Source of the DNA: Flexivirga endophytica
GTDB lineage: Bacteria > Actinomycetota > Actinomycetes > Actinomycetales > Dermatophilaceae
Assembly: GCF_014640635.1 (NCBI RefSeq)
Contig: NZ_BMHI01000002.1
Coordinates: 248,001-312,000 of the forward strand
DNA length: 64,000 nt
Direction: 5' to 3'
Below, in pieces: positions 20,813 through 24,747 of the stretch. The notes under the pieces are model-generated. The model made no database searches. It had not been told where the DNA came from and saw only the letters and a list, made by a program, of their open reading frames with translations. The stretch's first letter is position 1, and each line of letters starts with the position of its first letter. A program made the translations under genes and the position numbers.

Positions 20813-20819
20813 TCGCGAA

Positions 20820-20879
20820 TGACGGCTTCTTCGCCGAGTGACGGCCCAATAGGACCGTCACTCGGCGAAGAAGCCGTCA
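20820..20879. repeat. long perfect inverted repeat between convergent genes
   Basis: Two 25-bp arms (20820-20844 and 20855-20879) are exact reverse complements around a 10-bp spacer, cccaatagga. Each arm begins or ends with gacggcttcttcgcc-type sequence. The stop codon of the short thrS lies inside the right arm. It may terminate transcription from both sides, though there is no T-run; it may also be a mobile palindromic unit. Confidence 0.75.
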
Positions 20880-22223
20880 CTCGGCGGGGGTTGGTGGCCA
20901 GCTGAGCGCGCAGCGGGCGGCATACGCATCAGTGAGTATGTCGACCACGGCTCCCCGCTGGACCGAGCCGCGGTAGCCCGCAAAGACGTCGTTGACCTGC
21001 ACCGACCCGTCGACGGCCTCGGACTCACCGAGCACCGCGAACGCGTAGTCCCGGCGTGCTCGGCTCGCGCGGATCCGTGCCCCCAGGGACCCGGAAGCGT
21101 CCAGCTCGGCCCGCAGCCCACGCGCCACCAACGCATCGACGAACCCTCGCGCGACGTCGTCGACCGTCTCCGACACGGGCAGCACACGCAGCTGGATCGG
21201 GTTGAGCCACAACGGCATCCGCCCGGCATACCGCTCGAGCAACGCGGCGGTGACCCGTTCCATCGACCCGACGGTGCCGCGGTGGATCATCACCACCTGG
21301 TGCTCGGAGCCGTCCGGGCCGTCATACACGAGGTCGAAACGCTGCGGCTGCACGAAGTCCAGCTGCACGGTCGCGATGGTCTCACCGACACCCCGCGAAG
21401 TTCTCCCCCGCTCCGCTCCTCCGATACTTCGCGGGGACCCCGCCAAGCGAGCATTGCCGTCGATCACCTGCAGGTCCAGCTTCGGCCCGTAGAACGCGGC
21501 CTCGCCCGGCGCCTCCACCACCTCCAGCCCGTATGACGCCAGGTCGACCGCCGCACACGCCTGCCGCAATGCCTCGGCGGCCTCCGCCCACCGTGCCGGA
21601 TCGCCCAGTTGTCCCGGATCGGCATCGGGCAGCGACAGGCGCACGTAGTCGACCGGCATACCGAGCACGCGCTGCGCGTGCAACGCCGACCGCAGCGCTC
21701 GCTCCGCCTCGTCTGCGACCTGATCCGGCCGGCAGAAGACGTGAGTGTCGTCCAGGTTGATCTGCCGGACCCGGGTCAGCCCGGACACCACCCCGGACCG
21801 CTCGGCACGGAACATCGGCGCGAGTTCGTTGAAACGAAGCGGCAATTCGCGGTAGGAGTGCTGACGGGCGGCATACACCATCGCGTGGTGCGGACAGTTC
21901 GCCGGACGCAACACCAGCTGGTCACCGGGCGCTTCGTCACCCAGTGCCATCGGGGGAAACATGTCGGTGGCGAACTTCGCCCAGTGCCCCGACTTCTCGA
22001 AGAGCGCACGCTTGCCCAGCACCGGGGTGTGCACGCCGACGCACCCGTCGGCGCGGGCGATGTCGCGGGCCAACCGCTCCAGCTCGTCGCGGATCACCGA
22101 GCCGGCGGGCAGCCACAACGGCAGCCCGGACCCGACGAGCGGGTCGCCCGCGAAGAGGTCGAGATCACGACCGAGGTCGCGGTGATCATGGGGCGGATGT
22201 GCTTCATTGACAGGTGAATTCAT
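20877..22223 (-). CDS. short threonyl-tRNA synthetase (catalytic plus anticodon domains)
   Basis: 448 residues. The TGS and editing (second additional) domains of the usual 640-680-residue ThrRS are absent; the protein starts close to the class II catalytic core. Motif 1 region GVHTPVLGKRALFEKSGHW, zinc ligands Cys in RPANCPHH, His in LDDTHVFC and His in MIHRGTVGSMER are all present, so it should activate threonine. The anticodon-binding domain fills the last about 110 residues. Residues about 262-278 come from a palindromic element. Expression appears controlled by a Thr-codon attenuator upstream. A full-length housekeeping ThrRS is probably encoded elsewhere. Confidence 0.88.
   Translation of the reverse strand: MNSPVNEAHPPHDHRDLGRDLDLFAGDPLVGSGLPLWLPAGSVIRDELERLARDIARADGCVGVHTPVLGKRALFEKSGHWAKFATDMFPPMALGDEAPGDQLVLRPANCPHHAMVYAARQHSYRELPLRFNELAPMFRAERSGVVSGLTRVRQINLDDTHVFCRPDQVADEAERALRSALHAQRVLGMPVDYVRLSLPDADPGQLGDPARWAEAAEALRQACAAVDLASYGLEVVEAPGEAAFYGPKLDLQVIDGNARLAGSPRSIGGAERGRTSRGVGETIATVQLDFVQPQRFDLVYDGPDGSEHQVVMIHRGTVGSMERVTAALLERYAGRMPLWLNPIQLRVLPVSETVDDVARGFVDALVARGLRAELDASGSLGARIRASRARRDYAFAVLGESEAVDGSVQVNDVFAGYRGSVQRGAVVDILTDAYAARCALSWPPTPAE
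21391..21438. repeat. palindromic element, family II, in frame inside short thrS
   Basis: Perfect 11-bp terminal arms, ccccgcgaagt and acttcgcgggg, around a core containing ggaggagcggagcggggg. It adds about 17 residues (including GSPRSIGGAERGRTSRGVG) to a surface loop just before the conserved TVQLDF strand of the catalytic domain. Relative of the intergenic copy at 2745. Confidence 0.7.
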
Positions 22224-22263
22224 GACGTCCTCGAGTTGTCGGGCCCGAAGTCACCCGCGGCAC

Positions 22264-22295
22264 GAAAAACGCCCCGGAGATGACTCCGGGGCGTT
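22264..22295 (-). terminator. attenuator terminator upstream of short thrS
   Basis: On the minus strand: AACGCCCCGGAG, loop TCAT, CTCCGGGGCGTT, then a run giving TTTTT. This is a perfect 12-bp stem with a U-tract, placed 40 bp before the thrS start and 15 nt after the leader-peptide stop. Confidence 0.85.
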
Positions 22296-22309
22296 GATGT
22301 GCAGGTTGT

Positions 22310-22369
22310 TCAGTGCAGCACCGCGCAGCCGGAGTGATCCGGCGTCGTCGTGCGCTGCGCGTCATACAT
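22310..22369 (-). CDS. threonine-rich leader peptide of thrS attenuator
   Basis: A 19-residue open frame, MYDAQRTTTPDHSGCAVLH, with three consecutive ACG threonine codons at 22351-22343. It has no strong Shine-Dalgarno, but a TAGAGT box lies 7 nt upstream, so the mRNA probably begins at the ATG. Its stop lies 15 nt before the terminator stem. The role is to measure charged tRNA-Thr: scarcity stalls the ribosome and switches on the downstream synthetase. Not found by length-based gene callers. Confidence 0.75.
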   Translation of the reverse strand: MYDAQRTTTPDHSGCAVLH

Positions 22370-22376
22370 GAAGGTC

Positions 22377-22382
22377 ACTCTA
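22377..22382 (-). promoter_or_regulatory. -10 box of leaderless thr leader transcript
   Basis: TAGAGT on the minus strand, 7 nt before the leader-peptide ATG, fits the TANNNT rule of leaderless actinobacterial promoters. No clear -35 is seen. Confidence 0.45.
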
Positions 22383-22554
22383 CGACGCGGGCTCCCGAAC
22401 CGGAACCGCATTTGTCGGCACCAGGGTGCCGCCCGGTCTGGTGCGAGCGCACTAGGCGAAGACGGTCGCTGAGCACGATGTCAGACAGGTCCTCGCCGAC
22501 GAGTCTTGAAGTCGCGTGATTCTCACGCTCCCACGAACTACATGACTGGAGTGA

Positions 22555-24747
22555 ATGACGATGGCGAGACTTCTCAGCAGGGTCGGGCGGTGGGTGTTCC
22601 GGCGCCGGCGGCTCGTGGCCCGCATGTGGCTCGTCGCGGCGGTGCTTGCCATCGTCGCGGCGGTGGCCGCACCGTCCGGGGAGGAGGAGGACCTGACGAT
22701 GCCGGGCACCGAGTCGCAGCAGGCCTTCGACCTGCTGAACCAACGATTCCCCGGCAACGACGCCGAAGGCGCCGAGGCCAGGCTGGTGTTCAAGGCCGCG
22801 GACGGGCAACGCATCACCGCGCCCGGCCAGCAGGCGGCCGTCGAGGACACCCTCGGTTCGCTGAAGGACGGTGACCAGATCGCCTCCGTCAGCGATCCGT
22901 ATGACGACAAGGCGGTGAGCAAGGACGGCACCATCGCCTACTCGACGATCACCTACACGGCCGGCGCCACCAGCCTGAGCGACTCGACCAAGAGTGCGCT
23001 GGAGGATGCGGCCGAGCACGCTCGAGACGCGGGCCTGACCGCGGAGATCGGAGGCGATGCGCTCGACGCCGAGGTCGAACCCGGCGGCACGACCGAGATG
23101 ATCGGTGTCGTCGTCGCGGCCGTGGTGCTGATCCTGACCCTCGGGTCGCTGGTCGCCGCCGGGCTTTCCCTGTTGACCGCTTTCACCGGAGTGCTCATCG
23201 CGTTCGGCGCCGTCACCGCGTTGTCCGTGCCGCTCGGCCTGACCTCCACGGTCGGGATCCTGGCGCTGATGCTCGGACTCGCTGTCGGCATCGACTACTC
23301 ACTCTTCATCACCTCCCGCTATCGCGACGAGCGAGCACAGGGCAGAGAGCCGGAGGAGGCGGTCGGTCGAGCGCTGGGCACGGCCGGATCCGCAGTGGTG
23401 TTCGCCGGCGCGACCGTCATCATCGCCCTCGCAGGCTTGAGTGTTGTCGGGATCCCGGAGCTGACCAAGATCGGCCTCGGCGGCGCGGGTGCGGTCGCGC
23501 TCGCAGTACTGGTCGCCCTGACGCTGGTGCCCGCGTTGCTCGGCAAGTTCGGCAACCGGGTGCTGGCCCGCTCCATCCGCAGGGCGCGGCGGCGCGGTAG
23601 GCCGGTCCGCGCCAAGCGGCCTCGGCTGGCCGGCCGCTGGGCGGGTTTCGTGCTGCGCCGCCCGCTGAAGGTGCTGATCATCGCCGTGTTGGGGCTCGGC
23701 GCCGTCGCGCTCCCGACCCTGGGCCTCCAGTTGGGCCTGCCGGGCGACGAGTCGAAGCCGGTCGGCACGACGCAGCGCGACGCGTACGACCTGCTCTCCC
23801 AAGGGTTCGGGCCGGGCTTCAACGGACCGCTGACCGTCGTCGTCGACACGGCCTCCGCCGACAACCCGCAGGCCGCCACCAACCGGGTGGTCGACACGCT
23901 CCAGCAGATGGACGGTGTCGCATCGGTCGGCGAACCGGTGCTCAACAAGGCCGGTGACACCGCGGTCCTGACCGCCATACCGGAGACCGCACCGACCAGC
24001 GAAGAGACCACGGACCTGGTGAACCACATCCGGGACGAGGCGTCCGTTCTGGAGGCCGACACCGGCGCCGACGTCTTCGTGACCGGATCGACAGCGGTCA
24101 ACATCGACATCTCCCAGGCGATGTCGGACGCTCTGTTGCCCTATCTGTCCGTGGTCATCGGGCTGGCGGTGTTGCTCCTGCTGGTGATCTTCCGTTCGGT
24201 CCTGGTCCCGATCACGGCAGCGTTGGGCTTCCTGCTCTCGGTGGGCGCCGCCTTCGGAGTGCTCGTCGCGGTCTTCCAATGGGGCTGGGCCGCGGACCTG
24301 ATCGGCACCGAGCAGACCGGACCGGTGATGTCGCTCATGCCGATCCTGATCATCGGGATCGTCTTCGGCCTGGCGATGGATTACCAGGTGTTCCTGTTCA
24401 CCCGGGTCCGCGAGGCCTACGTCCACGGCCGACCACCGCGGGAGGCGCTCATCGAAGGCTTCCGGCACAGCGGCCGGGTGGTGACCGCCGCGGCGATCAT
24501 CATGTGCAGCGTGTTCGCCGGCTTCATCGGCATCCACAGCCCGACCATCCAGACGATGGGAGTGGGCCTGGCGTTCGCGGTCGCCTTCGACGCGTTCGTG
24601 GTCCGTATGGCGATCATGCCCGCGGTGCTGGCTCTGCTCGGACGGCGCGCGTGGTGGATGCCACGTATCCTCCATCGTGTGCTTCCGAAGGTGGACATCG
24701 AGGGCGAGTCGTTGGCCAAGCACGACCGGGTGCTCACATCGGTATGA
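22555..24747 (+). CDS. MMPL family RND-type transporter
   Basis: 730 residues with the twofold MMPL/HPE layout. Each half has one helix, an extracytoplasmic domain, then a cluster of about five helices (residues about 175-340 and 525-700). Conserved membrane motifs include GLAVGIDYSLFITSRYRDE and IVFGLAMDYQVFLFTRVREA, whose Asp-Tyr pairs form the proton relay in the family. Such proteins export lipids or hydrophobic compounds. The stop overlaps the next kinase gene by 4 nt, so transporter, kinase and regulator are one operon. ATG 22555 with GGAGTG just upstream. Confidence 0.9.
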   Translation: MTMARLLSRVGRWVFRRRRLVARMWLVAAVLAIVAAVAAPSGEEEDLTMPGTESQQAFDLLNQRFPGNDAEGAEARLVFKAADGQRITAPGQQAAVEDTLGSLKDGDQIASVSDPYDDKAVSKDGTIAYSTITYTAGATSLSDSTKSALEDAAEHARDAGLTAEIGGDALDAEVEPGGTTEMIGVVVAAVVLILTLGSLVAAGLSLLTAFTGVLIAFGAVTALSVPLGLTSTVGILALMLGLAVGIDYSLFITSRYRDERAQGREPEEAVGRALGTAGSAVVFAGATVIIALAGLSVVGIPELTKIGLGGAGAVALAVLVALTLVPALLGKFGNRVLARSIRRARRRGRPVRAKRPRLAGRWAGFVLRRPLKVLIIAVLGLGAVALPTLGLQLGLPGDESKPVGTTQRDAYDLLSQGFGPGFNGPLTVVVDTASADNPQAATNRVVDTLQQMDGVASVGEPVLNKAGDTAVLTAIPETAPTSEETTDLVNHIRDEASVLEADTGADVFVTGSTAVNIDISQAMSDALLPYLSVVIGLAVLLLLVIFRSVLVPITAALGFLLSVGAAFGVLVAVFQWGWAADLIGTEQTGPVMSLMPILIIGIVFGLAMDYQVFLFTRVREAYVHGRPPREALIEGFRHSGRVVTAAAIIMCSVFAGFIGIHSPTIQTMGVGLAFAVAFDAFVVRMAIMPAVLALLGRRAWWMPRILHRVLPKVDIEGESLAKHDRVLTSV

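Follow-up and report, generated by a model that had tools for sequence, protein, structure and literature searches.

A conserved threonine-codon leader upstream of a short, editing-less threonyl-tRNA synthetase gene in Flexivirga and other Actinomycetota is a probable transcription attenuator

Architecture of the element

The short threonyl-tRNA synthetase (ThrRS) gene, thrS, in the window (the whole 64,000-nt stretch of Flexivirga endophytica DNA that was analysed) is preceded by an element which is very probably a ribosome-mediated transcription attenuator acting on this short, editing-less enzyme. Re-reading of the window sequence places the whole element at 22369-22265 on the minus strand, ~40 nt 5′ of thrS; it and its surroundings comprise the following features.

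22377-22382, minus strand: -10 box TAGAGT, 7 nt 5′ of the leader ATG (sequence, and TANNNT in relatives)
22310-22369, minus strand: leader frame of 19 codons plus stop, MYDAQRTTTPDHSGCAVLH (sequence, conservation in relatives)
22343-22351, minus strand: control codons ACG ACG ACG, codons 7-9 (sequence; Thr conserved in relatives)
22328-22343, minus strand: core of the 1:2 hairpin, GCCGGA-UCAC-UCCGGC (folding, pair counts)
22329-22339, minus strand: segment 2, GAUCACUCCGG, the antiterminator strand (sequence, pair counts)
22279-22289, minus strand: segment 3, CCGGAGUCAUC, partner of segment 2 or, within the terminator, of segment 4 (pair counts)
22265-22295, minus strand: predicted terminator, 12-bp stem AACGCCCCGGAG/CUCCGGGGCGUU and a short U-tract (-24.5 kcal/mol)
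22228-22232, minus strand: Shine-Dalgarno-like GAGGA of thrS (sequence)
20877-22223, minus strand: short thrS, encoding 448 aa with no domains besides the class II core and the anticodon-binding domain (Pfam PF00587, PF03129)

The leader ATG occupies 22369-22367 and its TGA 22312-22310, and the first base of the 1:2 hairpin is the last base of the third ACG. The 2:3 pairing joins ACUCCGG (22335-22329) to CCGGAGU (22289-22283) and, past one C-C mismatch, reaches the full GAUCACUCCGG/CCGGAGUCAUC duplex. All 12 bp of the terminator hairpin, AACGCCCCGGAG-UCAU-CUCCGGGGCGUU at 22295-22268, are paired, and UUU follows; the stem itself supplies two further U, for a run of five. The frame, the three ACG codons, the 1:2 hairpin, the 7-bp 2:3 pairing and the 12-bp terminator had been proposed in the original prediction, made from the window sequence, and each was confirmed base for base. 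The 157-nt leader region folds with -74.7 kcal/mol (z = -4.1), which is better than 200 of 200 dinucleotide shuffles. A divergent MMPL-family transporter gene (22555-24747, plus strand) begins 186 nt from the leader start.

Conservation of the leader with the short thrS gene

Short ThrRS was found in 24 of 186 genomes of the family (E ≤ 1e-90), and a short frame with a Thr run and then Pro precedes the gene in all 24, one of which (L028) reads Thr-Ala-Thr. Among 80 named actinobacterial loci, the best 80 of 81 from a scan of GTDB contigs, the leader is present at 78; at the two others the contig ends 21 nt upstream (L097) or a leader was not seen (L113). These loci include Nocardia, Rhodococcus, Saccharopolyspora, Nocardioides, Promicromonospora, Actinoplanes, Frankia and Geodermatophilus, as well as Propionibacteriaceae, Acidimicrobiia and Nitriliruptoraceae, and five of the 78 leaders (L066, L068, L070, L075, L104) have TT or TAT in place of TTT. 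In a Streptomyces-like genus (genomes of 6-12 Mb) the gene occurs in 58 of 121 genomes (E ≤ 1e-120), and the leader at 28 of the 29 new loci examined. A phylum-wide search gave 40 of 396 at E ≤ 1e-78, mostly full-length ThrRS; leaders were examined at 11 loci, 10 of which have a Thr-run leader, with only 44 nt available upstream at the eleventh (L163). Loss of the Thr codons or of the pairing segments by relatives that keep the synthetase, which was to count against the original prediction, was thus mostly not observed, given the 24/24 family loci and 78/80 named loci that retain the leader.

At the Streptomyces-like exception, L187, a terminator-like hairpin is kept before the short thrS, the Thr leader is absent and the upstream sequence differs, perhaps through a rearrangement or an assembly join.

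For comparison with chance we defined a strict layout, consisting of a start codon, TTT within 14 codons, a stop within 40, and TANNNT 6-8 nt before the start. This layout occurs upstream of 72 of the 79 short thrS genes for which 420 nt could be inspected (the other seven are L066, L068, L070, L075 and L104, which have TT or TAT, L101, which has CAGCAT, and L113), in 0/3,539 control windows from both strands of the same loci, and in 0/22 regions around the estimated starts of full-length thrS. Without the -10 box, a TTT frame was found in 67 of the 3,539 control windows.

A covariance model, R1, was built from 48 aligned leaders, comprising the window and 47 of the 71 named leaders left when seven (L064, L101, L102, L105, L107, L110, L114) were kept outside the alignment, and was searched against 396 genomes of the order, some of which may be close to the training loci. 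Protein search identified short thrS in 16 of these genomes, and an R1 match lies just upstream of all 16. All 15 hits with E < 1e-8 are in this position; the sixteenth, in G259, is an in-place match of 33 bits, a score also reached elsewhere. Weak matches are frequent: 182 of the 396 genomes have one at E ≤ 0.01, in most cases away from thrS. In the host genome R1 gives 84.6 bits at the thrS site, and the next match, of 21.8 bits, is the opposite strand of the same site. Nine lower-scoring loci of the order were read: L137 is a short thrS, and the other eight, which include the best three matches away from thrS (41.6, 37.0 and 36.9 bits), have no such leader before a ThrRS gene. Neither in the host genome nor at these nine loci was the element found on other Thr genes.

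At gathering score Rfam 15 matched no family in the window or at the leaders of 10 related short-thrS loci, and at E ≤ 1 the window gave only three chance-level sRNA matches. A T-box riboswitch was rejected on the window result, in line with the original view of the element as an attenuator rather than a T-box. A c-di-AMP riboswitch match of 53.1 bits (L096:2292-2456, minus strand) is distant from thrS.

Leader start and termination signal

A TANNNT box lies 6-8 nt 5′ of the start codon in 77 of the 78 named leaders, and also in 28 Streptomyces-like leaders. The start codons of the named leaders (73 ATG and 5 GTG, n = 78) were picked with a preference for ATG and for a -10 box, and the leaderless start in the window is therefore a prediction. 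An alternative in-frame ATG at 22411 would give a 33-codon frame; we place the start at 22369 because of the TAGAGT box 7 nt upstream and the arrangement in relatives. The -35 boxes are weak, with a best match of 2/6 for the window leader and matches of ≥4/6 in 32% of 106 leaders, versus 12% in shuffles. For Streptomyces lividans, RNA-seq maps thrL, the transcript of a Thr leader before a thrS gene, as leaderless (PMC8079986).

The U-tracts are also weak (median of 3 U within 8 nt past the stem, 105 leaders). A generic terminator scan of 22150-22650, where the U-tract is short, returned no site, and in some leaders (e.g. L064, L102, L105) the terminator was placed wrongly by the finder program. 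Termination at S. lividans thrL is called unclear by its authors (PMC8079986).

Constraint on codons and on RNA

Of 107 leaders, 102, 106 and 107 have Thr at the first, second and third control position, and the preceding residues vary. At the first two Thr codons the third base is less constant (commonest base 0.81 and 0.93) than the first and second bases (0.95-1.00). The residue after the run is Pro in 105/107 leaders, and the one after that is Asp or Glu in 92/107; past Pro-Asp/Glu the frame differs by lineage (PDHSG, PDPLRR, PESVPAR) over a persistent CUCCGG or CCCGG in the RNA. From the third-base variation and this lineage-specific frame over constant RNA, it therefore looks as if the Thr run is held as codons and the following segment as RNA.

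ACG is found at the three positions in 86, 99 and 106 of 107 leaders. Among the 808 Thr codons of the short thrS genes, by comparison, 66 are ACG and 681 the dominant ACC; five window genes have ACG at 37 of 126. The preference may be due in part to the base pairing in which the third codon is engaged. The host has one tRNA-Thr gene for each of the anticodons CGU, UGU and GGU (46 tRNA matches in all), and a choice of attenuator codons by isoacceptor charging has been argued for (PMC1183508).

Alternative pairings and ribosome position

Across the 48-leader alignment, 96.5% of cells allow the antiterminator pairs, compared with 94.3% in shuffles, and eight cells are changed on both sides compared with 1.6; two pairs show such two-sided change, which is within the shuffle range (154/500). 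The 1:2 hairpin and the terminator have 18 two-sided-change cells versus 2.9, in six pairs versus 2.0. At one position six leaders have C/G/C in segments 2/3/4 where most have U/A/U, such that both alternative pairings are kept. Most of CCGG hardly varies and hence is silent in these counts, which are to be taken as support rather than as probabilities because the shuffles do not keep relatedness.

Folding calculations, made at equilibrium with an assumed fixed ribosome footprint, cover 105 of 107 leaders (L096 and L114 were lost to the anchoring rule). In the absence of a ribosome the predicted partner of segment 2 is segment 1, at a median probability of 1.00 with the lowest tenth below 0.58. 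If the leader is blocked as far as 12 nt from where an A-site Thr codon begins, segment 3 becomes the partner, again with a median of 1.00; the switch between the two states crosses 0.5 in 93 of the 105 leaders. When the A site is moved along codon by codon, the mean antiterminator probability is 0.33-0.38 at four to six codons ahead of the last Thr, 0.87-0.93 over the stretch that begins one codon ahead of the run and ends with its last Thr, and 0.14 one codon past the run, then 0.00; with the A site at the stop codon it is 0.02, exceeding 0.5 in 3/105 leaders. In the window leader codons 4, 5 and 6 give 0.86, 0.95 and 1.00, the Thr codons give 1.00 and the codon after the run 0.01, so that the model permits antitermination for stalls at codons 4-6 in the window, and further upstream in about one third of leaders. 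For every 3 nt of assumed footprint (9-18 nt tried) the downstream edge shifts by roughly one codon. In this model the 1:2, 2:3 and 3:4 pairings are mutually exclusive and would be chosen by ribosome position.

The short ThrRS and its genomic context

Domain search finds neither a TGS nor an editing domain in the short ThrRS. The 4.72-Mb host genome has a second, full-length ThrRS frame on another contig (41% identity over the core), which agrees with the earlier description of the short enzyme as a spare. Cys110, His161 and His314, at the zinc-ligand positions, are invariant in 17/17 aligned rows; we take them to match Cys334, His385 and His511 of E. coli ThrRS. On this alignment and its class II core, the short ThrRS is predicted to be catalytically competent.

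In a tree, 25 short ThrRS are separated from 14 full-length enzymes by one branch (support 100/99). Families are mixed within the short-ThrRS part, with Pseudonocardiaceae beside Intrasporangiaceae, Geodermatophilaceae beside Micromonosporaceae, and a Nitriliruptoraceae MAG beside Promicromonosporaceae; the mixing suggests that leader and gene moved together by transfer, and misbinned MAGs may add to it. The deepest short-ThrRS rows (L147, L153) keep Thr leaders. The best solved relative of the short ThrRS is the 1nyq enzyme, which would point to a Bacillota origin, but it is equally the best solved relative of the core of the host full-length ThrRS, and we therefore draw no conclusion on such an origin.

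No conserved partner genes were recognised among the 15 largest neighbour clusters, which consist of frames overlapping thrS or of neighbours within Promicromonosporaceae-type loci. Directly past the thrS stop lies a 32-nt inverted repeat (20816-20883; 94%, 4-nt loop), of which a 26-base core has 52 matches in the host genome with ≤3 mismatches, often as facing pairs, with 0 for the reversed control; the repeat is an interspersed extragenic palindrome.

Proposed mechanism and alternatives

Comparison and folding both support the core of the original prediction, that of a Thr-codon leader, predicted to be leaderless, which attenuates a spare short ThrRS. With the parts, their conservation and the geometry of the folds as described above, we infer for the host the transcript start, termination, ribosome stalling and inducing condition as follows. 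RNA polymerase would start at or beside the A of the leader AUG, as the -10 spacing implies, and the ribosome would therefore load on a bare 5′ end. When Thr-tRNA is ample, the ribosome would clear the three ACG codons, leaving segment 2 in the 1:2 hairpin or under the ribosome; with segment 2 occupied, the 3:4 terminator would form and transcription would stop before thrS. Under a shortage of Thr-tRNA, caused by Thr starvation or by a block of the housekeeping ThrRS, the ribosome would pause at the ACG codons and cover segment 1; segment 2 would then pair with segment 3 ahead of the synthesis of segment 4, and the polymerase would continue into the short ThrRS gene. Induction by uncharged tRNA-Thr, with a response to threonine or to inhibitors, would be expected. 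Tentatively, leader and short ThrRS might together form a mobile, self-contained sensor-effector cassette for Thr-tRNA that spread across Actinomycetota as a unit, in which the bare 5′ AUG and the ACG codons let a particular tRNA-Thr isoacceptor set the alarm, and the editing-free ThrRS sustains translation under Thr starvation or ThrRS inhibitors at a cost in fidelity.

It is conceivable, if doubtful as the main role, that the principal natural trigger of the same attenuator is a ThrRS-inhibiting antibiotic, with the short ThrRS as an inducible resistant copy, as is reported for the indolmycin-resistant TrpRS1 of Streptomyces coelicolor; this reading is compatible with the attenuator explanation. 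Resistance is a frequent function of duplicated synthetases (PMC9437257), the obafluorin producer is protected by an additional ThrRS, ObaO (PMC11252418), and the short thrS is patchily distributed with families mixed; however, the single resistance residue tested is absent. An ObaO-type resistant ThrRS would be expected to have Ser at the position of E. coli Gly463 (PMC11252418), and was rejected since the window enzyme has Gly there (Gly246), as do 17/17 rows. That the chief control is instead on thrS translation, through a hairpin which hides the Shine-Dalgarno site and makes termination secondary, appears improbable: a 5-nt complement to the Shine-Dalgarno region does occur between terminator and start at 40 of 63 loci (13.2 expected from shuffles), with a pairing probability for the site of 0.75 versus 0.64 (higher in 52/63 loci), but the window has no GGCUCC element, and the terminator stem and alternative pairing are far better conserved.

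Arrest of the ribosome by the leader peptide itself, at TTTP-Asp/Glu or with a ribosome-binding drug, in place of stalling for want of Thr-tRNA, is very improbable. The Pro and Asp/Glu right after the Thr run would suit such an arrest, but their conservation can be put down to the CCGGA that hairpin 1:2 also requires; moreover, the residues ahead of the run vary, deep members have no Pro (TTTTG, TTTTTG and TTTA in L147, L150 and L166), and the gene under control is that for ThrRS. A chance frame before an ordinary GC-rich hairpin is scarcely credible: short TTT frames on their own and weak R1 matches do turn up in the controls and across the order, yet we regard chance as excluded because the strict layout is found in 72 of 79 short-thrS upstream regions and in none of the control windows, and the leader is conserved across the phylum.

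A recurrent GGCUCC able to pair with the Shine-Dalgarno site is present in relatives (e.g. L041:4948-4994 and L081:4954-5003), where it is a possible second layer of control.

Relation to known attenuators

The attenuator of the enterobacterial thr operon likewise has a Thr-rich leader, competing hairpins and a terminator, but it controls biosynthesis and has a Shine-Dalgarno site, and Rfam shows no sequence match to it here. The thrS and thrZ genes of Bacillus subtilis also encode ThrRS and are under antitermination on Thr shortage; there the T-box RNA binds tRNA directly, whereas here the reading frame would be the sensor and no T-box is matched. Reportedly (Vecchione and Sello, in 2010), the spare TrpRS1 of Streptomyces coelicolor is under ribosome-mediated attenuation and is indolmycin-resistant. 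That system resembles the present one in that a leader containing codons for the cognate amino acid precedes the gene of an additional synthetase, and differs in that the amino acid is Trp, not Thr, and that resistance to indolmycin was reportedly shown for TrpRS1.

The present results extend what was a single-species report to a widespread actinobacterial element. The geometry is sharp and testable, since antitermination is predicted for a ribosome at the Thr codons and is lost when it has moved on by one codon, and the element is a tidy case of attenuation on a leaderless mRNA, where ribosomes would load without a Shine-Dalgarno site. It marks a lineage of spare, editing-less ThrRS with candidate roles in starvation or antibiotic resistance, and the leader could act as a reporter for ThrRS inhibitors.

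The original prediction had regarded a ribosome-mediated attenuator on an actinobacterial synthetase gene as unusual, a view which has to be given up in the light of two precedents. Attenuators of trpS and leuS were predicted in Streptomyces by Seliverstov et al. in 2005 (PMC1262725); these are likewise cases of leader-peptide control of aminoacyl-tRNA synthetase genes in Actinobacteria, for other amino acids, and no thrS element is reported in the part consulted. In S. lividans TK24 the leaderless thrL (SLIV_19412), before thrS (SLIV_19410), was described by Droste et al. in 2021 as a short peptide, MKRVRPFLETTPGFVPAR, and read by the authors as a Thr-dependent attenuator (PMC8079986). The features of thrL, TTP and a following hairpin, are found in the window, with a leaderless start predicted; thrL fits the MKR...TTP..VPAR leaders of Streptomyces-like loci, the likeness being one of the leader, and the window and S. 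lividans leaders are linked because intermediates of the form MKRA..TTTPESVPAR occur at Streptomyces-like loci. The S. lividans leader differs in having two Thr codons, and its termination is called unclear by its authors, as noted above (PMC8079986); the antiterminator and comparative analysis are added here. Searches of the open-licence PMC literature brought up no other report that we recognised as one of an actinobacterial thrS leader. This kind of attenuator was therefore already known for Actinomycetota; new are its breadth and sharper anatomy, through the Flexivirga example and a widespread element without Rfam match that is tied to one editing-less ThrRS lineage. The S. lividans metL leader, assigned to methionine, also contains TTTP (EATTTPGARCM; PMC8079986, Table 4).
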